A stretch of 64,000 nucleotides of DNA from Verrucomicrobiota bacterium (GTDB lineage: Bacteria; Verrucomicrobiota; Verrucomicrobiia; Verrucomicrobiales; Verrucomicrobiaceae): contig JANYCZ010000021.1 in the NCBI GenBank assembly GCA_025360015.1, positions 124,001 to 188,000 on the forward strand, in the 5' to 3' direction. Shown here in pieces: positions 8,254-23,971 of the stretch. The translations under genes were made by a program, and so were the position numbers. The notes under the pieces were generated by a model that saw only the letters and a list, made by a program, of their open reading frames with translations, had not been told where the DNA came from and ran no database searches. Position 1 is the first letter of the stretch; every line of letters begins with the position of its first letter.

Positions 8254-8553
8254 TCAGTTTCGCCACAAGCCGTAATTCGGGTGCCGTTTCTCATGCTTCA
8301 CCACCGACACACGAACGCTGTCCGGCAGAATGCGGAATAGAATCAAGTAGGGAAACTTGTTCAGCGTTGTCCGCCGCAGAATCTGATTGCCCAGATAATA
8401 TGGAAATCGCGTGGGCTGCTCCGCGATCTCGACGAATCGCGCCCGCAACTCACTGAAGAAGCGGTCCGCCAGTCGTTCTCCACCTTCCTTGTGATAGTAG
8501 GCGAGGATGGCCTTCACATCCCGCTCCACCGCCGGATGAAAGGTGAGATTCAC
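8254..8553 (-). CDS. ParE/RelE-superfamily toxin
   Basis: 99 residues. The N-terminal helix pair (FHPAVERDVKAILAYYHKEGGERLADRFFSEL) and the beta sheet ending in VSVVKHEKRHPNYG fit plasmid-stabilisation ParE/RelE toxins. Family members poison gyrase or cleave mRNA at the ribosome; which applies here is not readable. The start overlaps the antitoxin stop by four bases (ATGA at 8550-8553), the normal arrangement for a co-translated pair. Confidence 0.88.
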   Translation of the reverse strand: MNLTFHPAVERDVKAILAYYHKEGGERLADRFFSELRARFVEIAEQPTRFPYYLGNQILRRTTLNKFPYLILFRILPDSVRVSVVKHEKRHPNYGLWRN

Positions 8554-8777
8554 GCCGCCTGCCCTGGCCGCTGAATCCTCGCCATGAACTCCTCATAAGA
8601 CAATGGCTTCACCAGCCCTGCCTCCATTTCCGCATCTCGTCGTAGAGCTTCGGCCAAGATGTCTTCTGGCTCTTCTGCGTCATCGGGCAAGCTGTCCAGC
8701 ATCATCATCGCAATGGCAGTGCGCTCGGATCTCCCGAGGCCCATGGCCGCATGTACGATTTCATTCACGGTGCTCAT
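8550..8777 (-). CDS. Addiction-module antitoxin (PF09720-like)
   Basis: 75 residues: VHAAMGLGRSERTAIAMMML and a C-terminal acidic segment with DAEMEAGLVKPLSYEEFMAR. The pattern (short helix bundle, L-S-x-x-E-R-x-x-L-A near the N-terminus, acidic middle) matches the small unstable antitoxin family paired with ParE toxins. It precedes the toxin gene and overlaps it. A related antitoxin occurs at 47704-47928. Confidence 0.82.
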   Translation of the reverse strand: MSTVNEIVHAAMGLGRSERTAIAMMMLDSLPDDAEEPEDILAEALRRDAEMEAGLVKPLSYEEFMARIQRPGQAA

Positions 8778-11981: not shown

Positions 11982-12365
11982 ATGAAAACGACATCCTCAA
12001 AATTATTCAGGGGGGTGATGGTGATCGCCGCCCTGCTGGTGCCCGGCACGACGTGGTGGGCGAGTTTGCGCTACTATCAGGCGCGCAATCAAGCGGCGAG
12101 ACCTGCCGCTGCGGAGAACAAGGCGCAACGGCAGTATGACGGGTCAAAATCGCAGCGGGAAGCCCCTTCCAGGAGGCTGGATCCAAGCTCTGTCGAATTT
12201 GCGCCAGTGCAGGTCTTGCGCACTTCCTGGAACGGCCAGACTGATCCGGACAGTGTGTGGCACGACCAGCGTCTCCGGGCAAATGTCATGCTGGTGAAGC
12301 AGGGCCTGCCCGCGCTGAGCACCGGCTATGGTGCTCCCCCTTCTCGCCAAATCCCGGCCCGGTAA
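11982..12365 (+). CDS. Small membrane-anchored hypothetical protein
   Basis: 127 residues from MKTTSSKLFRGVMVIAALLV. An N-terminal signal anchor (about 9-30) is followed by a polar Ala/Arg/Gln-rich region and a Pro-rich end (YGAPPSRQIPAR). No domain recognised. It is the first frame of the co-directional cluster continuing with the PqqD-like gene 90 bases later. It could be a precursor or accessory of that system, but the signal anchor argues against an ordinary RiPP leader. A short inverted repeat (CGGCAAA/TTTGCCG, 12366-12397) directly follows its stop. Confidence 0.6.
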   Translation: MKTTSSKLFRGVMVIAALLVPGTTWWASLRYYQARNQAARPAAAENKAQRQYDGSKSQREAPSRRLDPSSVEFAPVQVLRTSWNGQTDPDSVWHDQRLRANVMLVKQGLPALSTGYGAPPSRQIPAR

Positions 12366-12454
12366 CGGCAAAAATAAACGCAAATTCATCTTTGCCGCTG
12401 CGGTGGTGTTAACCGGCCGGGTTTCTATGTGGTGTGATTCAATCAACCACCACC

Positions 12455-12793
12455 ATGAAACTCGCCCCCTTTTCCACCCTGATGCGGCACAACAGTCAGC
12501 CGCATGACCTGGCCCCTGCTGTGGCCCCGAGCACCGCCACAGCCACTTTTGATTTTCATACCGTCACCTGGCAGGCGGATGGTTTTGGGTTTGATGCCAC
12601 CAGCGGTGAATTTTTCACCGCCAGCCCGACGGCGCTTATCGTCATGCAGGCGCTGAGCGAGGGCGTGGCACGCCCGCAGATTCTGGACCGCGTTACGGCG
12701 CACTTTGAGGTCGCCCGCAGTACTGCGGAGCGGGATCTGGAATCCTTTTTCGCTGAGCTTGTCCACATCGGACTGATCGAGGAATCGAACTGA
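12455..12793 (+). CDS. PqqD-like protein (RRE-type fold)
   Basis: 112 residues from ATG 12455; a GTG at 12434 in frame would add seven. The segment FGFDATSGEFFTASPTALIV followed by LSEGVARPQILDRVTAHFEV and ERDLESFFAELVHIGLIEES is the classic PqqD pattern: a beta hairpin, N-P/S-P-T-A, then three helices ending in a hydrophobic stretch. PqqD folds bind peptide leaders or partner proteins in several biosynthetic systems. The gene is 13 bases upstream of an ATP-grasp ligase, which supports a role as a recognition or carrier subunit. No radical SAM enzyme is nearby, unlike in PQQ synthesis. Confidence 0.8.
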   Translation: MKLAPFSTLMRHNSQPHDLAPAVAPSTATATFDFHTVTWQADGFGFDATSGEFFTASPTALIVMQALSEGVARPQILDRVTAHFEVARSTAERDLESFFAELVHIGLIEESN

Positions 12794-12806
12794 ATTTCAT
12801 CCTCTC

Positions 12807-13910
12807 ATGAATGCTTCTCCAGTCATCGCCGTCACCGGGCTTCATCGCGGTGAAAATCCCCAGCCGGGGTCTGCGGTCATCCGCAGCCTGCGCCGCGTTT
12901 ATCCGGAACTGCGCATCATTGGTCTTGTTTATGATTCGCTGGAGAGCGGTCTCTTCAGCGAAGAGGACGCGCCGGATGCCGCCTTCACGATGTCCTACCC
13001 CGGCGCAGGGGAAGAGGCTTTCTGGCAGCGCCTTGATGCGATCCGTGAAATTGAGCGCTTTGACGTTTTGATTCCCTGTCTCGATGCTGAGATGGGGCCG
13101 CTGGTGGATGCGCCCGAAAAGTTGCGCGAGCGTGGCATTCACACGTGCCTGCCGACGGTGGAGAGTTTTAAATGCCGTGACAAATCGAGGCTGGCCGAAC
13201 TGTGCGAGCGCACGCACTGCCGCACGCCGCAGACCCTCGCTGTGAGCGATGTGAACTCGCTGCATCAGGCGGCGATGACGCTTGGTGGGAATGTGTTTGT
13301 CAAAGGCCGCTTTTATGAGGCCCGGCACGCCATCACACCGGCCGCACGTGAAGCCGCGTACTGGCACATGCTGGAGCAATGGGGCGCGCCGGTGCTGGTG
13401 CAGGAAAATGTGCAGGGGGAGGAATACAACGTGGTCGGTCTGGGCGATGGGTGCGGCCACATGCTGGGCTGCTGCTCCATCCGCAAGATGCTCCGTACGG
13501 CCAGCGGCAAAGGTTTTGGCGGGATGATCGTGCGTGATCCGCAACTGGATGCCATCGCGCAATCACTGATCGCCGAGCTGCGCTGGAACGGGCCGTTTGA
13601 ACTTGAGTTCGTCAAATCTGAAGGGGCCAAAGGCGAGTACTGCCTCATCGAGATCAATCCGCGTTTCCCCGCGTGGTGTGATTTTCCCTCCGCGCTGAAC
13701 TGCAATCTGCCTGCTGCCGCGATGGAGCTGGCCCTGGGCTGGCAGCCGCGCGAGCCGCTGCGTCATGCGACTCCTGGCAAGTTTTTCATCCGGCATGCCA
13801 TCGACATGACCGGCGACATCCGTGATCTCGCCGCCCTCACCACGACCGGCCAGTTCTTCCGCCAGCCGCGCGAGATCATCCCGCACCCGGCCGCCTCGCG
13901 AGGTCTGTAA
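12807..13910 (+). CDS. ATP-grasp family ligase
   Basis: 367 residues. The N-terminal Rossmann-like part starts IAVTGLHRGENPQPG, followed by the ATP-grasp core: GGNVFVKGRFYEARHAI near 155 (phosphate-binding lysine strand), VLVQENVQGEEYNVVGLG near 200 (adenine-binding E), and LIEINPRFPAW near 275 (metal-binding E and N). It resembles carbamoyl-phosphate-synthase-like and amino acid ligases that form an acyl phosphate and couple it to an amine. Substrates cannot be read. It sits between the PqqD-like gene and the PLP decarboxylase with gaps of 13 and 25 bases. Confidence 0.9.
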   Translation: MNASPVIAVTGLHRGENPQPGSAVIRSLRRVYPELRIIGLVYDSLESGLFSEEDAPDAAFTMSYPGAGEEAFWQRLDAIREIERFDVLIPCLDAEMGPLVDAPEKLRERGIHTCLPTVESFKCRDKSRLAELCERTHCRTPQTLAVSDVNSLHQAAMTLGGNVFVKGRFYEARHAITPAAREAAYWHMLEQWGAPVLVQENVQGEEYNVVGLGDGCGHMLGCCSIRKMLRTASGKGFGGMIVRDPQLDAIAQSLIAELRWNGPFELEFVKSEGAKGEYCLIEINPRFPAWCDFPSALNCNLPAAAMELALGWQPREPLRHATPGKFFIRHAIDMTGDIRDLAALTTTGQFFRQPREIIPHPAASRGL

Positions 13911-13935
13911 TTCCAACCCTTCACCGCATCCTCCC

Positions 13936-15375
13936 ATGCAACCCCTTCTGCCATATTCCCCACCGACGATCACGCGTCACCTCAGCGGCCAGAACAGCGC
14001 CGCCAACCGCAACCGCCATGCGCATGGCCTGAACAGCAACGTGTGCGAACGCATCGACGGCGTGCCTGTGGCGGATCTCGCCGCACGCTTCGGCTCGCCG
14101 CTTTTCGTTTTCTCCGAGCGTACGCTGCGAGAGAAAATCCAGCGTGCGCGTGAGGCATTCGAGAGCCGCTATCCGAACACACGTTTCGCCTGGAGCTACA
14201 AGACGAACTACCTCAACGCCATCTGCCGTGTCTTTCACAGCGAAGGCTCCATCGCTGAGGTGGTGAGCGAGTTTGAGTATGAAAAAGCGCGCCACAATGG
14301 TGTGGCCGGACGCGACATCATTTTCAACGGGCCGCATAAAACACGCGCAGGGCTGGAGCTTGCCATCAGCGAAGGCGCGATGATTCAGGTGGATAACTGG
14401 GATGAACTCCTGCTGCTGGACACCCTTGCGAAAGAGCAAAATCGCAGCATCGACATCGCCATCCGCTGCTGGCTGGATGCGGGCATTCAGCCGGTGTGGA
14501 GCAAGTTTGGCTTTGGCGTCGAAAACGGCGAAGCCTGGCGGGCGATCCGACGCATTGCTGAAAGCAAGGGCCGCCTCCGTTTGCAGGGGCTGCACACGCA
14601 TATCGGCACGTATATTTTGGAGCCGAATGCCTACAAGGTGGCGGCGGAGAAACTCATCACGCTCATGGAGCGCTGCCGTGAGAGTTATGGCTGGTCCTTG
14701 CGCTACCTGAACCTGGGTGGCGGTTTCCCATCGCTCAGTTCGCTGCATTACTCGTATCAGCCTGCGGAGCAGGTGGTGCCGCCGATCGAAAAATACGCCG
14801 AGGCCATTGCCAGTGCGCTGAACACGCTGCCGCGAGATCGCCGTCCGCGCCTGTATTTGGAAAGCGGACGGGCGCTGGTGGATGAGGGGGGGTATCTCAT
14901 CACCAGCATCGTGGCCGTAAAGCAAATCGGCGCGTCCGGGCCGATCACGCTGGCAGGCAAGGTGGCGAAGGCGCCTGCTTACATGCCTGAATCAACGGGA
15001 GTCGCCTATGTCATTGATGCGGGCATCAACATCCTCTACAGCGGCAACTGGTATCGTTTCAATGTGAAGCCCGCCAAAGCACAGCGTGAAAGCGCCCAGC
15101 AGCCTATCAAGCTGTACGGCTGTCTGTGCATGAACATCGACGTCATTCGCGAGCAGGTCTCCCTGCCGGCGATGACCACGGGCGATCATCTCGTCATGCA
15201 TCCGGTGGGGGCTTACAACATCACGCAGAGCATGCAGTTCATCACTTATCGGCCGGCGGTGGTCATGATCGGCCTGGATGGCCGCGTGGATGTCATTCGC
15301 GAACGCGAAGACCTCGACTACGTGCAGCGCCTGGAACGCGTGCCGGAACGTCTGCTCACCCCATCGCGCTCATGA
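13936..15375 (+). CDS. PLP-dependent decarboxylase, fold type III (LysA/ODC group IV)
   Basis: 479 residues from MQPLLPYSPPT. The PLP lysine is in FAWSYKTNY (K89). Other signatures: GLHTHIGTY (HxHIG), YLNLGGGFP (phosphate-binding glycines), LESGRALV (the E-x-GR motif) and a CLCMNIDVI segment providing the second-subunit Cys and Asp, then GAYNITQSMQF. It probably removes the alpha-carboxyl of a diamino acid (diaminopimelate, ornithine, arginine or a conjugate). A 40-residue N-terminal extension precedes the barrel. Its stop overlaps the next start (ATGA at 15372). Placement beside an ATP-grasp ligase suggests a dedicated biosynthetic rather than housekeeping LysA role. Confidence 0.9.
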   Translation: MQPLLPYSPPTITRHLSGQNSAANRNRHAHGLNSNVCERIDGVPVADLAARFGSPLFVFSERTLREKIQRAREAFESRYPNTRFAWSYKTNYLNAICRVFHSEGSIAEVVSEFEYEKARHNGVAGRDIIFNGPHKTRAGLELAISEGAMIQVDNWDELLLLDTLAKEQNRSIDIAIRCWLDAGIQPVWSKFGFGVENGEAWRAIRRIAESKGRLRLQGLHTHIGTYILEPNAYKVAAEKLITLMERCRESYGWSLRYLNLGGGFPSLSSLHYSYQPAEQVVPPIEKYAEAIASALNTLPRDRRPRLYLESGRALVDEGGYLITSIVAVKQIGASGPITLAGKVAKAPAYMPESTGVAYVIDAGINILYSGNWYRFNVKPAKAQRESAQQPIKLYGCLCMNIDVIREQVSLPAMTTGDHLVMHPVGAYNITQSMQFITYRPAVVMIGLDGRVDVIREREDLDYVQRLERVPERLLTPSRS

Positions 15376-17633
15376 ACTCGGAAGCCCCATCTACCCTCCC
15401 TGTGATGGCTCTTCTTGAAGAGAACGAAGCTCACTCTTTTTGGAAGAGGACGGCTGCCTTCGCCAAAACGCTGCGTCCTCACCTTGAAATTTTCGCGACG
15501 CCGCTGTTAGAAGTCGCGCGTGCTGCGAGCTCCATCTTTCTTTGTGGCAGTTGGAAAACAGGTGCGCTGCTGTGTGCCACGCTGCTGTTCATGCCGCGCT
15601 ACTTTGCCTTCGCGGTCAGCGCCTGCCTGCTCGGGGGCTTGATCGCGAAGCTGCTGCACCTGCCTGCGGCGATGCGAAAGGATGGTACGCTGCTGTACAA
15701 TGTTTTCCTGAGCGCGCTTGCGGTTGCATGGATCACGCGTGGATCCGTGCTCGGGCCTCCGGCGATCTGGGGCATGCTAGGCGTGGTCACAGTTTACACG
15801 CTGCTGCTGTCCGCAGCGTTGTGGCACTGGTTTCCACTGCGCGCCGGGCTGCCGCCGCTGAGCGTCGCGTTTGTCGTGGTCTTTGGCACGCTGCTGACGT
15901 TTTTCCCGCACTGGGCGGCGGGCACGGTTCTGCTGGACATGGGGCTGCCGGCTGAGCCTGCCCTGCCGTTTGTTGTCGCTGCCTTTCTGCGCAGCATGGG
16001 GACGATATTATTTCTGCCGAATGTGTGGGCGGGCATGGCGGTGACGCTGGCGATTCTGGTGTGGTCACGCGTCGCCATGATCAATGCCGTTGCGGGTTAC
16101 GCGGGGGGCATTCTCATTGTGAAGATGCTTGAGGCCTGCGGGCTGGAGTGGCTTGGCTGGTTTGCGGGGCACAATTATCTGCTGGCGGGCATGGCGCTGG
16201 GCGCGGTGTATTTCGTGCCGTCTTGGAGCAGTCTGGCGCTGGCGTTTGTGGCGGGGGCTGTTGCCGCACTGCACGTGGCGGCGGTGCAGCATTTTCTGCG
16301 TGGCTCGGGCTGGGAGTATCTGCCGCTGCCGTATTTGCTTACGATCTGGAGTCTGCTGTGCTGCCTGCGCCTGCGTGAAAAATCCGGTTCGCTGCTGCCA
16401 GCCACGGGTGTTTCTGACAATCCTGAAGCCGCCGCTGCTTCGCTGGCTCTGGCGAACGCCCGCTTTCCGCATCGTCATGAAACTCATGTGCTGATGCCCA
16501 CCGCGCGCGAAGTCACGGTGACGCAGGGCTTTGATGGCAAGCTCAGCCATCGCGGAGAGTGGCAGCATGCGCTCGACTTTGAAGTGCATGACGCTGCCGA
16601 CAATGCCTGCCCGCCGGGCTATGATGACGACTTGAGCCGCTACTACACGCAGGGGCTCGAAGTGCGTGCTCCTGGCACCGGTGAAATCATCCGCGTCATT
16701 GACGGTGTGGCCGACAATGCCCCCGGCGGCTGCAACTTTGCGAACAACTGGGGCAACCACCTCATCCTGCGTCTTGATTACGGTGGCACGGTGAAGCTGG
16801 CGCACTTCATGAAGAACGGCATCGTCGTGAAAACCGGGCAGCGTGTGGGTGCGGGTGAGCTTCTGGGCTACTGCGGCAACTCGGGTCGCAGCCCGGTGCC
16901 GCACATTCATCTGCACAATCAGATCAGCAATGAAACCGGCGCACCCACGGCACCTTTCTGCCTCACGAATTATTTTACGCGCACCGCTGAAGGGGTGCGG
17001 TGGAACTTTGCCAGTGTGCCCGAAGTGGGAGACCGCATCGCCCCGGCGACGGTCTCCACCACCGTGCTGGGCACGCTGGCCCATTTTGCCCCCGGGATGG
17101 CGACGTATCGTGGGTGCGATGAGGAATCGGTCTGGTTCGAGACGATCACCACCACCCTGGATGAATCCGGCCGCTACCTTTTCCGCTGCGGCAAAGAGTC
17201 GCTCACGGCGGTTCTTGGACTGCACGCGCTGCAGATCACGCAGAGCAACCTGAGTGGTCATTCGCAGCTTCTGCGGTTCCTTTCGTTCGCCATGCCCACC
17301 GTGCCTTTCGCTTATCAAAGCGGCATGATCTGGGAGGATAGTGTCGCTTTGCGGTCAAAGCCGCACGGGTGGGCATTGGCGAGCGTTTTTGCGCCTTATG
17401 CGGGCCACGGCATGCAGCGCGTCGCCACCCGCCACTCGCTGCATCCCACCCCGCAGAGGCTGCACCTCACGACCGCCATCGTGAACGGCGGTGAGGAACT
17501 TCCGGGAGAAATCGAATTCACCCTCAAGCCGATCTGCGGCCTCGCGCAACTCGCCGCACATTTCCAAGACCACGACTGCCTCTTCACGCAGACCAGCTTC
17601 ACCCCCACGCTGCCCAACGGCGATGCGGAATAA
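15372..17633 (+). CDS. Urea-transporter-like / M23 metallopeptidase fusion
   Basis: 753 residues. Residues ~60-345 form about ten membrane helices with the two-repeat pattern of the urea transporter family: a KDGTLLYNVFLSAL pore segment in the first half and AGHNYLLAGMALGAVYF in the second. A linker leads to an M23 (LytM-like) domain: H399 and D402 (the HxxxD zinc motif in WQHALDFEV) and H511-I-H513-L-H515 (the HxH motif in SPVPHIHLH). A further ~200 residues of beta-rich sequence follow. M23 enzymes cleave peptide cross-links in peptidoglycan. The peptidase may be extracytoplasmic. Translationally coupled to the decarboxylase. Confidence 0.85.
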   Translation: MNSEAPSTLPVMALLEENEAHSFWKRTAAFAKTLRPHLEIFATPLLEVARAASSIFLCGSWKTGALLCATLLFMPRYFAFAVSACLLGGLIAKLLHLPAAMRKDGTLLYNVFLSALAVAWITRGSVLGPPAIWGMLGVVTVYTLLLSAALWHWFPLRAGLPPLSVAFVVVFGTLLTFFPHWAAGTVLLDMGLPAEPALPFVVAAFLRSMGTILFLPNVWAGMAVTLAILVWSRVAMINAVAGYAGGILIVKMLEACGLEWLGWFAGHNYLLAGMALGAVYFVPSWSSLALAFVAGAVAALHVAAVQHFLRGSGWEYLPLPYLLTIWSLLCCLRLREKSGSLLPATGVSDNPEAAAASLALANARFPHRHETHVLMPTAREVTVTQGFDGKLSHRGEWQHALDFEVHDAADNACPPGYDDDLSRYYTQGLEVRAPGTGEIIRVIDGVADNAPGGCNFANNWGNHLILRLDYGGTVKLAHFMKNGIVVKTGQRVGAGELLGYCGNSGRSPVPHIHLHNQISNETGAPTAPFCLTNYFTRTAEGVRWNFASVPEVGDRIAPATVSTTVLGTLAHFAPGMATYRGCDEESVWFETITTTLDESGRYLFRCGKESLTAVLGLHALQITQSNLSGHSQLLRFLSFAMPTVPFAYQSGMIWEDSVALRSKPHGWALASVFAPYAGHGMQRVATRHSLHPTPQRLHLTTAIVNGGEELPGEIEFTLKPICGLAQLAAHFQDHDCLFTQTSFTPTLPNGDAE

Positions 17634-17652
17634 ACCACTCTCCCATCCATCC

Positions 17653-18309
17653 ATGAAAACACACATCCTCATTCTCGCCTTCGCCTGCGTCACTGCTGCG
17701 AATGCCGCCGAAAAACTCCACGCCATTTCTGAAGCGTGGCAGAAATCTCTCACTGCTGAAGCCAACAGCGATTACGCCGGGGCGCTGGACAGCGTGCTCG
17801 CCTTCAAAAGCGCCGGTGGTGAAACGTATCTGGCGGCGGTGCGCGCAGGCTGGCTTTCTTATCTCAGCAAGGACTACCCCAAGGCCATTCAATATTACAC
17901 CACTGCTGCCAAACAGGAGCCGCGCGCCATCACGCCCCACCTCGGCATGATGAACGTGTATCAGGCGCAGACCAAGCCCGAGGACGTCCTGCGTGCAGCG
18001 CGCGAGGTTTTGAAGATCGACCAGTATCACCGTTCAACGCTGCTCATTGCCGGGGAAATTCTTTTCAATCAGCAGGACTACCGCAAAGCGGAGGTGTTCT
18101 TTGAGCGTGCCTACAAGCTGATGCCGGAAGATCCGCTGGGCATGAGCTGGTTTGGCTGGGCGCAGATCAATCAGGGGCAGGCGCGGATGGCGGCGCCCTT
18201 GTTTGAAAAGCTCATGCAGATCAATCCGCAGGGCTACATGGTGCATGAGGGGTTCGGCATCACGCATCCCGGCCTGATGCCACCACCACCGCCGCCGGAC
18301 CAACGCTGA
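17653..18309 (+). CDS. Periplasmic TPR protein
   Basis: 218 residues from MKTHILILAFACVTAANAA, a signal peptide. Three or four TPR-like units cover about 45-205 (YLSKDYPKAIQYYTTAAKQE; FNQQDYRKAEVFFERAYKLM; INQGQARMAAPLFEKLMQI). The C-terminus ends in a polyproline run. It probably scaffolds the neighbouring membrane and hydrolase components. It lies 19 bases after the urea-transporter fusion and 16 bases before the PaaK-like gene. Confidence 0.85.
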   Translation: MKTHILILAFACVTAANAAEKLHAISEAWQKSLTAEANSDYAGALDSVLAFKSAGGETYLAAVRAGWLSYLSKDYPKAIQYYTTAAKQEPRAITPHLGMMNVYQAQTKPEDVLRAAREVLKIDQYHRSTLLIAGEILFNQQDYRKAEVFFERAYKLMPEDPLGMSWFGWAQINQGQARMAAPLFEKLMQINPQGYMVHEGFGITHPGLMPPPPPPDQR

Positions 18310-18313
18310 TTTT

Positions 18314-18320
18314 AAGGAGG
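18314..18320 (+). promoter_or_regulatory. Strong Shine-Dalgarno site AAGGAGG
   Basis: A full AAGGAGG five bases before the ATG at 18326. Most genes in this window have weak or no Shine-Dalgarno sites, so this one supports both the start choice and efficient translation of the PaaK-like enzyme. Confidence 0.85.
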
Positions 18321-18325
18321 ACGGC

Positions 18326-19651
18326 ATGCACCCGCCATCTCAGATACGCACGGGCGGGAGGCATCTCCATGCTGCGCTGGATCAAGTGATCGAACAACGT
18401 GGGTGGAGCATGCCGAAGCGCCGGGCACACCAGTGGCGTACATTGCGTGCGCTGGTGCAGCATGCGCATGCTCATATTCCTCTTTATCAAAGGCTGTTTG
18501 AGCAGGCGGGATTCACCCCTGCAATGCTGGATGACTGGGATGATCTGCCGAAGATCCCGTTTCTCACCAAGCACGATCTGCGCACGGCCACGCGGGCGGA
18601 TTTGCTGGCCAAAGACAACCGTGATGACATCCGATGGCTGGCGTCTTCGGGCTCCACCGGAATTCCAGCCAGCATGGCACGTACGGAGGATTCGCTGTGG
18701 CACTACATGGCCTGCAACACGGCGCTGTACTATGATTGGTGCCAGGGGAAGCCGCTCAGCAACGGGCTTTATCTGGTCGATATGGCTCCCGACAGCATCG
18801 ACTTTGCGGTGGCTGATCTCCTGCGCATGACGGTGCCGGATTCGCGCATCTTTTCCGTCCACGATCCTGTGGTCAGGCTCACGAGGGAACTTCTGAGCTG
18901 CAGGCCTGAATTCATTTCGTCCTACCCCTCCACGCTACGTGCCATCGCGCTGGAACTGCGTGCGCAGAAGCGCGTGATGAACCAAACGCGGCTCATTCAT
19001 CTCACCTCCGAGATGCTGGATGCGCATACGCGGCATCTGCTGGGGCAGATCTTTCCGAACGCACGGCTCATCGAGACCTACAGCAGCACCGAAGGCGGGC
19101 TTATGGGCTGGCAGTGCATGCACGGCGCGCGCTGGCACACCGCTGAGACGAATGTACTCTGTGAAATCGTGGATGAAAACGGACTGCCCACGACCGGGCT
19201 CGGGCACATTGTCATTACCGATCTCACCAACACCGCCACGCCGATCCTGCGTTATCGCGGACTTGGAGATCTGGCCCGCTGGGAGCCGGAGCCGTGCCCA
19301 TGCGGCAGCACTGCGCGAAGCATCCGGCAGATTGAAGGCCGCAGCGCCGCCATGCTGCGTGCGCGTGATGGCGCTTTGATCTCACCTTATGTCATCACCA
19401 ACGCCATTGAGGAGGTGGCTGGACTGGCGCAGTATCAGGTGGTGCAAAAGCAGGCGGGCATGTTTGAGGTCCGTGTCGTGGTCGAAAGCAGCGCATCGCG
19501 CAATCGCGTCGAAAAAGAGGTGCAGAGTGCGCTTGAAACTGCGCTGGACAGTGCGGCCGATTTACAGATCACTTTCGTCTCAAAGATTGCTGCGCCGCCA
19601 GGATCGCATAAGGTGCCGCTTGTGATTTCTGAACTGCCCCTCGCCGCATGA
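18326..19651 (+). CDS. PaaK/CapK-like adenylate-forming enzyme
   Basis: 441 residues. The ATP/AMP loop is SSGSTGIPASMARTE near residue 110, the second motif is TYSSTEGG near 250, and a YRGLGDLARWEPEPCPCGST segment near 312-332 carries the CxCG of phenylacetate-CoA ligase relatives. It should activate a carboxylic acid as an acyl adenylate and transfer it to CoA, a carrier or an amine. An aromatic or fatty substrate is possible. Strong ribosome-binding site upstream; the stop overlaps the next gene (ATGA at 19648-19651). Confidence 0.88.
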   Translation: MHPPSQIRTGGRHLHAALDQVIEQRGWSMPKRRAHQWRTLRALVQHAHAHIPLYQRLFEQAGFTPAMLDDWDDLPKIPFLTKHDLRTATRADLLAKDNRDDIRWLASSGSTGIPASMARTEDSLWHYMACNTALYYDWCQGKPLSNGLYLVDMAPDSIDFAVADLLRMTVPDSRIFSVHDPVVRLTRELLSCRPEFISSYPSTLRAIALELRAQKRVMNQTRLIHLTSEMLDAHTRHLLGQIFPNARLIETYSSTEGGLMGWQCMHGARWHTAETNVLCEIVDENGLPTTGLGHIVITDLTNTATPILRYRGLGDLARWEPEPCPCGSTARSIRQIEGRSAAMLRARDGALISPYVITNAIEEVAGLAQYQVVQKQAGMFEVRVVVESSASRNRVEKEVQSALETALDSAADLQITFVSKIAAPPGSHKVPLVISELPLAA

Positions 19652-21159
19652 AACGCCTGCTGGACCACACCCTGCGTGGTTACGGGCAGATGCTCGTGGC
19701 GAACAGCCGCATCACTGGTGTGTGCGTCCTCATCGGCCTGCTTGTCCTTTCGGTGGAAGCCGCGCTGATGAGCCTGGGTGGAGCGCTGCTGATATCCGCG
19801 CTGGCGCAATGGCGCGCGCAGGATGATGGCGTGCTCAAGACCGGACTCTTCAGCGTGAATGGCGCGCTGCTCGGTGCTTTGTGGTATTTATTTCCGCAGG
19901 TGCCGCTGTGGGCGCAGGGGCTGACCACGGCGCTGGGTTGTGCGGCCATGGCCTTTTTCTTCGTGCCTGTGGCCGAGCGCATGCATGAGAGGAAATCGCC
20001 TTATGTACTCTTCAGCCTGCCTTATGTCGCAGTGGCGTGGGCGGCGCTGACGGCGCTGATTTTCTTTGGCGTGCATGATGCCGAGCTCACGCGCGGCTGG
20101 CGTGCGCTGCTGACCAACCGCTTTGAGAAAGCTGAGAAACATTTCCTCAATACGGAAGTCAGCACCGACATGGCGGAGGCCTACCGCTGCGCGGGGCTCG
20201 GCTGGAGTTTGTATCGGCGTGGAGATCAAACCGGCGCGCAAACGGCCTTCTCGCGCGTGCTCACGCTCAAAACGGGCGTCGCAGATGCCTATGACGGCCT
20301 AGGCTGGAGCCGCTTTCGCCAAGGGCGCTATGACGATGCTACGCTGGCGTTTCGGCGGGCTGTGGCGCTGGATTCTTTTTTTGCGGACTCCTGGGATGGC
20401 CTGGGCTGGTGCGCCCTGCAAACCGGCCACCCGGATGAAGCGCGACATCACTTCACCACAGCGGCGCTGTGCGCGCCCCTGTTTGCCGATGCTTATACTG
20501 GCTTCGCGGCAACCTTGTCGGGAGGCACAGCGCATGAGCATGCGAAGTCATGGAGCGGGTTTCTCTCCAATCATCTCAGCCAGACGGCGCAGTTCACCTC
20601 CACGCGTGTGCTGCTGTGCTGGGTGTGGTTCTTCATCGGCATTCTCTGGCATTCACGCACCAGTGCTCTTGTGGCTCTGTGTGCTGTGCTTGTCTGTTTT
20701 GCAGGTTCTTTGTGGAAGCCGGTCTTTGGTGATCCAGCCTTTGCGATGAATGTGATCGTGCTTGCTCTGGCTCTGGGCGGTCATTACCTGCGGCTGAATG
20801 TGAGGACCGTCGCGTGGATGCTGCTGGTCACGCTGGGGCTGGCGGTGGTGTGGGAGCCACTCTCAGAAGCACTTCTGCGTCTGGCGCTGCTGCCGCTTTG
20901 CCTGCCGTTCAACATGGCTCTTTTTGGCAGCATCGCGTTCTTTGGATGGCTGCAGCGCCGGGGGCTGCGTGATGAGCGCATACCCATTGACTGGGCCTCC
21001 AGCACGCCGGCGCAGATCCGCGTCTTCATCGCGCAAAAAGAGGTGGCCGATGTCTGCTGGGACAAACTCAAGAAAGCAGACCCTGAGCAGCCACGACCGC
21101 AGACGGAACGCTCACTTCAGCTTCCGGCCAAAGTGAACTTCAAAGTAAACGCCGAGTGA
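19648..21159 (+). CDS. Urea-transporter-like membrane protein interrupted by a TPR block
   Basis: 503 residues. Residues ~20-145 hold the first half of a urea-transporter-like fold (GLFSVNGALLGALWYLFPQV, then SPYVLFSLPYVAVAW). A soluble stretch ~150-300 has three TPR units (GLGWSLYRRGDQTGAQTAFS; GLGWSRFRQGRYDDATLAFR; GLGWCALQTGHPDEARHHFT). Membrane helices resume at ~320 with the second half (NVIVLALALGGHYLRLN and LLPLCLPFNMALFG). The transporter fold therefore appears split by a helical-repeat insertion. Last gene of the cluster; its 3' end overlaps the convergent amidohydrolase gene by 48 bases. Confidence 0.75.
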   Translation: MKRLLDHTLRGYGQMLVANSRITGVCVLIGLLVLSVEAALMSLGGALLISALAQWRAQDDGVLKTGLFSVNGALLGALWYLFPQVPLWAQGLTTALGCAAMAFFFVPVAERMHERKSPYVLFSLPYVAVAWAALTALIFFGVHDAELTRGWRALLTNRFEKAEKHFLNTEVSTDMAEAYRCAGLGWSLYRRGDQTGAQTAFSRVLTLKTGVADAYDGLGWSRFRQGRYDDATLAFRRAVALDSFFADSWDGLGWCALQTGHPDEARHHFTTAALCAPLFADAYTGFAATLSGGTAHEHAKSWSGFLSNHLSQTAQFTSTRVLLCWVWFFIGILWHSRTSALVALCAVLVCFAGSLWKPVFGDPAFAMNVIVLALALGGHYLRLNVRTVAWMLLVTLGLAVVWEPLSEALLRLALLPLCLPFNMALFGSIAFFGWLQRRGLRDERIPIDWASSTPAQIRVFIAQKEVADVCWDKLKKADPEQPRPQTERSLQLPAKVNFKVNAE

Positions 21160-23645: not shown

Positions 23646-23971
23646 CAGCCGATATTGGCGCAGATGCATTGCTGGACCTTGATCTGCAATTTGAATAGTA
23701 TGCAGATGTTGCCGATGAAGATGTGGCAGGACGGTATCTGGCCGCGTTTCATGAATCAAAAGAGCAACTTTGCCGCCTGCCCGATTTGGGTCGAATTCGC
23801 CGGTTCCAACACCGCAGACTGGCCAAGCTCCGCTCTTTTCACCTTCAAGGATCGTTTCAAAAGCACCTCATTTTCTACCGCGTAGAGGACGACACGCTGG
23901 TCGTTTTCCGCGTGCTGCAAGGCGTGCGTGACCTGCCCCGGCGATTGCTGGAATCGCCGGGGTCAGAGTGA
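23639..23971 (+). pseudogene. ParE-type toxin interrupted by an amber stop
   Basis: The frame from ATG 23639 reads MLTADIGADALLDLDLQFE, then TAG at 23696-23698, and continues in the same frame with YADVADEDVAGRYLAAFHES and FQKHLIFYRVEDDTLVVFRV to 23971. The two parts together give a full-length ParE/RelE toxin of about 110 residues, in which the stop replaces a residue in the usual F-E-Y-Y helix. The second part alone begins at GTG 23723 and lacks the N-terminal helix. The toxin is probably inactive unless the stop is read through. Confidence 0.75.

Follow-up and report, generated by a model that had tools for sequence, protein, structure and literature searches.

This study concerns a cluster of eight co-directional open reading frames (ORFs), g1 to g8, at positions 11982-21159 of a 64,000-nucleotide stretch of DNA (hereafter the window) from the genome of a Verrucomicrobiota bacterium (GenBank assembly GCA_025360015.1, contig JANYCZ010000021.1, positions 124,001 to 188,000). 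All eight ORFs lie on the forward strand, separated by gaps of 13-68 nt or joined by 4-nt ATGA overlaps at 15372-15375 and 19648-19651, an arrangement given in a preliminary description of the window and borne out for every ORF.

Four of these genes are central to what follows. The first, g2 (12434-12793), encodes a stand-alone PqqD-like protein, i.e. a recognition element (RRE) of the kind used by pathways for ribosomally synthesized and post-translationally modified peptides (RiPPs), with its domain at about residues 53-115 (PF05402, 2e-8, above cut-off); among NCBIfam models it comes closest to that of the lasso PqqD chaperone (NF033530), though below that model's cut-off. The second, g3 (12807-13910), is assigned as an ATP-grasp carboxylate ligase from NCBIfam and PDB matches and from the conserved residues K166, E265, E267, E282, N284 and R286; its Pfam matches are below cut-off, those to PRK12767-type NCBIfam models are clearer, though also below, and the PDB matches were obtained via the family profile. 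The third, g4 (13936-15375), is a fold-III (alanine racemase-fold) pyridoxal phosphate (PLP) decarboxylase resembling FigC/FslC (PF02784/PF00278), with a C-M-N-I-D active-site loop and, at residues 7-12 (13954-13971), a leader-like motif Y-S-P-P-T-I of the form YxxPx[I]; relative to five phylum relatives it carries an insertion of about 20 residues at positions ~337-356. The fourth, g5 (15372-17633), referred to here as UT-M23, joins a urea transporter (UT)-type channel (PF03253, 4e-30; residues 33-364, 15468-16463) to an M23 metallopeptidase domain (2e-8; residues 369-548, 16476-17015) and a C-terminal beta-rich domain (~residues 550-753).

The remaining genes were named by family search. They are g6 (17653-18309), a tetratricopeptide repeat (TPR) protein with a signal-like N-terminus; g7 (18326-19651), an AMP-forming ligase similar to PaaK and FlxY; g8 (19648-21159), a second UT protein whose two halves are split by TPR repeats at about residues 147-300 (20086-20547); and g1 (11982-12365), a small protein with an N-terminal hydrophobic stretch for which the search was empty and which was found only in close Verrucomicrobiota relatives. 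The M23 domain of g5 and the TPR insert of g8, as well as the outer-membrane barrel of relatives considered below, go beyond what the preliminary description had listed.

Conservation of the core

The neighbourhood of the decarboxylase was examined in 86 loci (labelled with the prefix L), comprising the window's own, five from the same phylum and the best 80 of at least 569 decarboxylase relatives, retrieved in named genomes with a six-sequence decarboxylase alignment. The ATP-grasp gene lies immediately upstream of the decarboxylase on the same strand in 84 of the 86; an RRE is present within the locus in 81 (72 at first pass and nine recovered by profile); and UT-M23 follows the decarboxylase within 1.2 kb on the same strand in 78. 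In the other eight, UT-M23 is elsewhere in the locus in L043, on the opposite strand in L059 and 3.1 kb away in L103, the contig ends in L081, and each of the four genomes whose decarboxylase locus is without it (L066, L069, L073 and L108) carries it elsewhere. Within the phylum, a search of 288 genomes with g5 gave matches in 22, among which the window's own genome and five others matched in both the UT and the M23 parts; in all five of the latter the decarboxylase and ATP-grasp genes adjoin and an RRE is present.

A second sample was drawn with the UT-M23 alignment as bait in 198 genomes from the phylum of the Melioribacter locus G293, in which 18 places scored above 690 bits, one being G293 itself. 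The other 17 all had the decarboxylase directly upstream and the ATP-grasp and RRE genes further upstream, and, since one of them (L148) duplicates a locus already in the first sample (L074), 16 of these loci are new. No decarboxylase was seen beside any of 12 UT-only, M23-only or broken matches, within a fetched flank of at most ~1.5 kb. The same four-gene association is thus recovered whether the decarboxylase or UT-M23 is the bait, and therefore the UT-M23 fusion and the other three genes travel together. In one locus (L132, genome G302) the UT-M23 gene is apparently broken, its reading frame being divided into two open pieces with a stop. L133 and L136 are examples of M23 proteins that stand alone but closely resemble the UT-M23 peptidase.

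A tree of the 86 decarboxylases spans 17 NCBI phylum labels, with eight rows lacking one, and requires 25 label changes against a minimum of 16, a figure to be read in the light of the many rows that are metagenome bins and whose labels may be wrong; the named isolates Chthoniobacter flavus, Thermodesulfatator autotrophicus and Pedobacter paludis are also found among the relatives. Judged by its nearest named loci, the window's genome belongs to Verrucomicrobiota close to Prosthecobacter. Unbiased clustering of neighbouring genes placed a TPR gene beside the core in 62 of the 86 loci. The other clusters were a mixed sensor-kinase-like one, on both strands (22 loci), barrel-like ones (20, 11 and 6 loci) and one of secreted proteins (9 loci), each of the remainder occurring in at most seven loci. 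The related loci L026, L028 and L029 have, upstream of the RRE, genes that by inspection resemble a sigma factor and a zinc-ribbon Ser/Thr kinase and that are alike in all three. Among the 86 loci, g1, g7 and g8 are confined to close Verrucomicrobiota relatives, where they were met in five, two and five fetched loci respectively, with the single exception of a weak, oppositely oriented PaaK match in L049.

The core of the system is thus formed by the RRE, the ATP-grasp ligase, the decarboxylase and UT-M23, often accompanied by a secreted TPR protein, and it is strongly conserved across many phyla; g1, the PaaK-like g7 and the second UT protein g8 are lineage additions outside it. The conserved synteny on which the preliminary description had made its proposal depend is found in these counts. 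Of the neighbourhood it had named, the PqqD-like, ATP-grasp and decarboxylase genes recur and the PaaK-like gene is lineage-restricted, and of its two UT-type proteins only g5 belongs to the core. No description of this combination of genes was found in the open-access literature (subscription papers lying largely outside that search), in agreement with its view of the cluster as undescribed.

Around the cluster, genes for ParE-type toxins (PF05016) occur on both sides, at 8257-8777 on the reverse strand, paired with a weak Unstab_antitox match, and at 23723-23968 on the forward strand. A promoter scan returned one site, compared with 2.4 in shuffled sequences. An empty site could not be read in the three same-genus genomes, because the flanking permease and PQQ-like genes find their best matches on different contigs in all three. 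Plasmid records gave 23 matches to g5, and the 20 listed are confined to the M23 region and its margins.

The leader-like tail and the recognition element

The tail of the decarboxylase precedes the catalytic domain and has a consensus close to Y-E-K-P-V-I-x-K-L-x-x-G-x-M-N-K-F-G, in which all 86 proteins have the proline and, as the last residue of the six-residue motif, a hydrophobic one, while 82 have the tyrosine (Phe in three, Leu in one). The solved structures nearest the RRE family profile are TbiB1 (1.8e-14) and TfuB1 (1.1e-13), both RREs of lasso peptide pathways. According to PMC13381572, lasso-type RREs bind leaders of the form [Y/W]xxPx[L/V/I/F/A]; in LppB, the RRE of another RiPP family, Asp70 holds the leader Tyr and Asn33 the Pro kink, and its authors state that many RREs of the PQQ and lasso pathways conserve both residues. 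The columns matching these two in LppB, occupied in the window by Asp101 (12734-12736) and Ser64, were placed through the alignment with TbiB1 together with the pattern of conservation rather than by aligning LppB. The first is taken as the leader-Tyr-binding Asp; the second, the Asn column, is N in 66, S in 15 and T in one of 82 RREs.

Leader and RRE vary together across loci. Distances over decarboxylase residues 1-12 and over the RRE, with the distance of the decarboxylase core removed, gave a partial Mantel r of 0.37 in 67 non-redundant loci, a value reached in none of 5000 permutations, while 66 overlapping control windows of the decarboxylase core gave at most 0.215 (median 0.015); when the Verrucomicrobiota clade f22 was left out, r was 0.336, against 0.219 or less for the control windows. 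At the level of single residues, the RRE Asp was present in 76 of 78 loci with a Tyr leader (the exceptions being L027 with Asn and L064 with Gly) and in none of the four with another residue (L026, L028, L029 and L054), a difference whose significance the Fisher p of 8.6e-6 over 82 loci overstates because L026, L028 and L029 form one clade. In the second sample, with the expectation fixed before the RREs were read, all 15 Tyr-leader loci, 14 of them new, carried Asp, and both Phe-leader loci carried Tyr in that column; the leader of L146 is FERPII (L121, in the same genome). After removal of the duplicate, the combined count is 90 loci with Tyr and Asp, two with Tyr and no Asp, none with another leader residue and Asp, and six with neither; it omits L058, L073, L075 and L102, where no RRE was found, and takes the RRE of L052 from another contig (L144). 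The coupling between leader and RRE is strong, and direct contact between the RRE and the tail would be the most economical reading of both the covariation and the Tyr/Asp pair.

The conservation of the tail runs past the leader motif (N in 66, K in 66 and G in 63 of 86), which favours another explanation, namely that the tail is itself a substrate and the ATP-grasp enzyme modifies the N-terminal segment (leader and N-K-F-G), yielding a self-modified or activated decarboxylase. We consider this quite improbable: covariation with the RRE is weaker for residues 13-24 than for residues 1-12 (0.21 vs 0.37), and the tail offers no universal acceptor, because the Lys column is Pro in nine and Ala in eight of the 86.

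The RRE could also serve a RiPP pathway in the ordinary sense. A pathway with a local precursor was set aside, as no short ORF on the operon strand is conserved across phyla except PqqD and the leader motif occurs in the short ORFs of the loci at chance level, the search having been confined to the loci. In its loose form the motif was found 47 times, compared with 46-61 in five shuffles, and a scan for two strict forms, reporting those ORFs that lack a G-S-P-like motif or are shorter than 300 residues, gave one 17-residue match only. There remains a RiPP with an unlinked precursor, which the RRE would bind, the ATP-grasp enzyme and decarboxylase would modify and the M23 domain would cleave, the YxxP tail of the decarboxylase being a decoy or regulatory mimic. 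The lasso-type RRE speaks for it, and ATP-grasp and peptidase domains do occur in RiPP pathways; related decarboxylases accept large conjugates (PMC7857480). We nevertheless regard it as rather unlikely, given that the short ORFs at the loci are, PqqD aside, neither conserved nor enriched in the motif over shuffles, that the decarboxylase leader co-varies with the RRE and the expected contact pair held in new loci, and that the lasso B2 peptidase family (PF13471) exceeds its cut-off in one of seven genomes. The window's genome has two B2 matches, both below cut-off, and none of the eight gene products belongs to that family. Nor is there a lasso cyclase (asparagine synthetase-like) among the eight products, no genome-wide search for it having been made. 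The idea that PqqD acts as a LysW-like amino-group carrier was set aside, as its C-terminus is by eye not conserved.

Compared with the lasso RRE (B1) and YxxP leader pairs of TbiB1 and TfuB1, the present pair is alike in the RRE, whose family has these two as its nearest solved structures, in the motif and in the Asp and, mostly, the Asn contact residues. It differs in that the leader-like motif opens the sequence of an enzyme of ~450 residues whose active site is intact, and in that no local precursor was found and no lasso enzymes occur among the eight genes. Some proteins picked up by the lasso model of RRE-Finder are described in PMC7470986 as having no lasso machinery alongside them and as possible members of uncharacterised classes. 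The recognition role proposed for the PqqD-like protein in the preliminary description is supported by these data in an altered form, in which it most likely grips the decarboxylase's own tail instead of a separate precursor peptide.

Chemistry of the decarboxylase and the ligase

The closest solved relative of the decarboxylase is N-citrylornithine decarboxylase (FigC/FslC, 1.4e-86), the best diaminopimelate decarboxylase (DAPDC) scoring 1.6e-62. The family has the features of the FigC clade, i.e. a fold-III PLP enzyme with catalytic Lys and Cys and a Met replacing an acidic residue, and in its Cys loop, C-M-N-I-D, the C, M, I and D are each present in 86/86. This Met next to the catalytic Cys corresponds to M355 of FigC (PMC7857480), whose subfamily, according to the same paper, includes enzymes acting on amino acids conjugated to a citryl group. 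The DAPDC signature is missing, with neither the acidic residue of C-E-S nor the Arg-Pro consensus in the D-A-G-M-N segment. Both are present in the separate canonical LysA encoded in the same genome, and a plain LysA was set aside because of the wrong active-site loop together with that second gene.

The FigC/FslC-type Met adjoining its Cys suggests that the substrate of the decarboxylase is probably an amino acid in conjugated form, so that the enzyme would not make a free amine. The coupling of an amine to a carboxylate suggested in the preliminary description accordingly stays plausible, with the decarboxylation step moved from free amine formation to the conjugate. By analogy, the conjugate would most simply be made by the adjoining ATP-grasp enzyme, in which K166, E265, E267, E282, N284 and R286, chosen from general knowledge of the fold and taken by us to be likely ATP-site residues, are conserved in 82/82 sequences. 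Set beside FigC/FslC of rhizoferrin biosynthesis, its closest solved relative, and the related SbnH, AcsE, MccE and BtrK, the decarboxylase shares the Met next to Cys and is distinguished by a partner that is an ATP-grasp enzyme rather than an NRPS-independent siderophore (NIS) synthetase, by the leader-like tail and by other loop residues after the Met.

This kinship with FigC/FslC and DAPDC is what would recommend an NIS-kind siderophore locus, or a duplicate operon for lysine or polyamine decarboxylation. Both are very improbable: a search for IucA/IucC-type synthetases was negative in all seven genomes and positive in two of 14 control genomes, so that an NIS siderophore was set aside, and the separate LysA and the absent DAPDC signature residues count against a duplicate enzyme.

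Envelope components and the proposed pathway

An AlphaFold2 model of UT-M23 from 72 sequences reached a mean predicted local distance difference test (pLDDT) score of 90.7. Its UT domain superposes on solved urea transporters with Z scores of 33-35 (2.4-3.2 Å over 302-313 residues) and its M23 domain on LytM-type domains with Z up to 15; H393, D402, H478, H511 and H513 of the latter are invariant in 72/72. The column matching a mouth Glu of dvUT, which we take to be a urea-site residue, holds Ala, Thr or Leu in 61 of the 72 sequences, and Glu does not appear among the residues listed for it. With respect to known urea transporters (UT, SLC14, dvUT), g5 has the full UT fold over ~residues 33-364 and differs in its fusion to M23 and beta-rich domains and in the changed mouth column, while in g8 the halves are split by TPR repeats.

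UT proteins have both termini in the cytoplasm. The Lys+Arg bias of the UT-M23 loops, delimited from the model helices and that topology, favours this orientation in 59 of 72 sequences, is equal in 11 and opposes it in two. Together, the homology to UT proteins and the charge bias predict a surprising, cytoplasmic location for the M23 domain, and by the same topology the TPR insert of g8 would be periplasmic. The peptidase resembles M23/LytM enzymes in its fold and its five metal or catalytic residues, and departs from them in being attached to the C-terminus of a UT domain predicted to face the cytoplasm.

In about 40 loci the core is joined by a barrel-like protein (30 loci by profile and 11 judged by eye as TPR plus barrel, one being shared). 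The one barrel modelled has 14 strands (pLDDT 87.9) and is similar, at Z ~19-21, to CymA, TodX, FadL and OmpG; the added protein, likely an outer-membrane barrel, differs from these channels in that three representatives had no Pfam match and in a conserved G-F-V-V-Y-N-L signature near the C-terminus of the aligned group. Among six genomes, the barrel profile matched in two (Thermodesulfatator and Persephonella) and not in the window's genome or three others. A PgaA-type polymer exporter, suggested by the combination of TPR and barrel, was set aside, as the closest structures to the barrel model are channels for small molecules. In L100, two adjacent barrel-family genes (13944-15886) accompany one core set.

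Both channels are of passive types, with sequences compatible with either direction of transport, which would allow uptake of a urea-like or amide compound through porin and UT channel followed by its enzymatic breakdown. This alternative seems improbable to us, since a ligase that consumes ATP and a decarboxylase docked by an RRE suggest biosynthesis and the column of the dvUT mouth Glu is Ala, Thr or Leu in most sequences.

It is reasonable to infer that a conjugate is decarboxylated and the product exported. The scheme we propose, at about even confidence, is a pathway of diderm bacteria in which an RRE-docked decarboxylase acts on the conjugate made by the ATP-grasp enzyme and a small-molecule product leaves through the UT channel. 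The RRE would dock the decarboxylase by its leader-like tail beside the ligase, which would couple an amino acid, through the amine of its side chain, to a carboxylate; the decarboxylase would convert this conjugate to a terminal amine, as FigC/FslC does with N-citrylornithine; and the product would exit via the channel of UT-M23 and then, where present, the 14-strand porin, with TPR proteins organising the periplasmic side. From the cytoplasmic face, the M23 domain might trim the product, release it or regulate access to the channel, and the window's lineage would add a PaaK-like ligase and the second UT protein with its TPR insert. Of the export or sensing by transporter-like proteins envisaged earlier, membrane export parts are plausible and sensing is without support. 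More tentatively, the whole may constitute a new envelope-spanning assembly line, in which the RRE docks an enzyme and the ligase, decarboxylase, peptidase-bearing channel and dedicated porin pass the product outward.

Several observations weigh against the proposed pathway. The 86-locus counts do not describe a random sample, because 80 of the loci are the most similar of at least 569. The window's RRE has Ser64 where most RREs carry the Pro-contacting Asn, and the Tyr/Asp covariation comes from few independent lineages, the f22 clade of Verrucomicrobiota and at least one lineage of Bacteroidota; the structure models are of single chains, and docking is argued from covariation. The L073 locus holds the decarboxylase alone, its ATP-grasp and UT-M23 genes being elsewhere in the genome and no RRE being found near the decarboxylase or the ATP-grasp gene. 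A cytoplasmic M23 domain would be unusual, and L133, a relative consisting of M23 without the UT part, seems to be a lipoprotein. The barrel model covers one relative only, and the window's locus has no barrel, nor is the profile matched in its genome. Product and direction of transport are inferred in our best reading.

If the proposed pathway is true, a route present under 17 NCBI phylum labels yields an exported small molecule and includes a UT-type channel wired to a peptidase. RREs would then serve beyond peptide precursors, as enzyme-docking adaptors, which matters for genome mining because RREs are taken there as signs of RiPPs.

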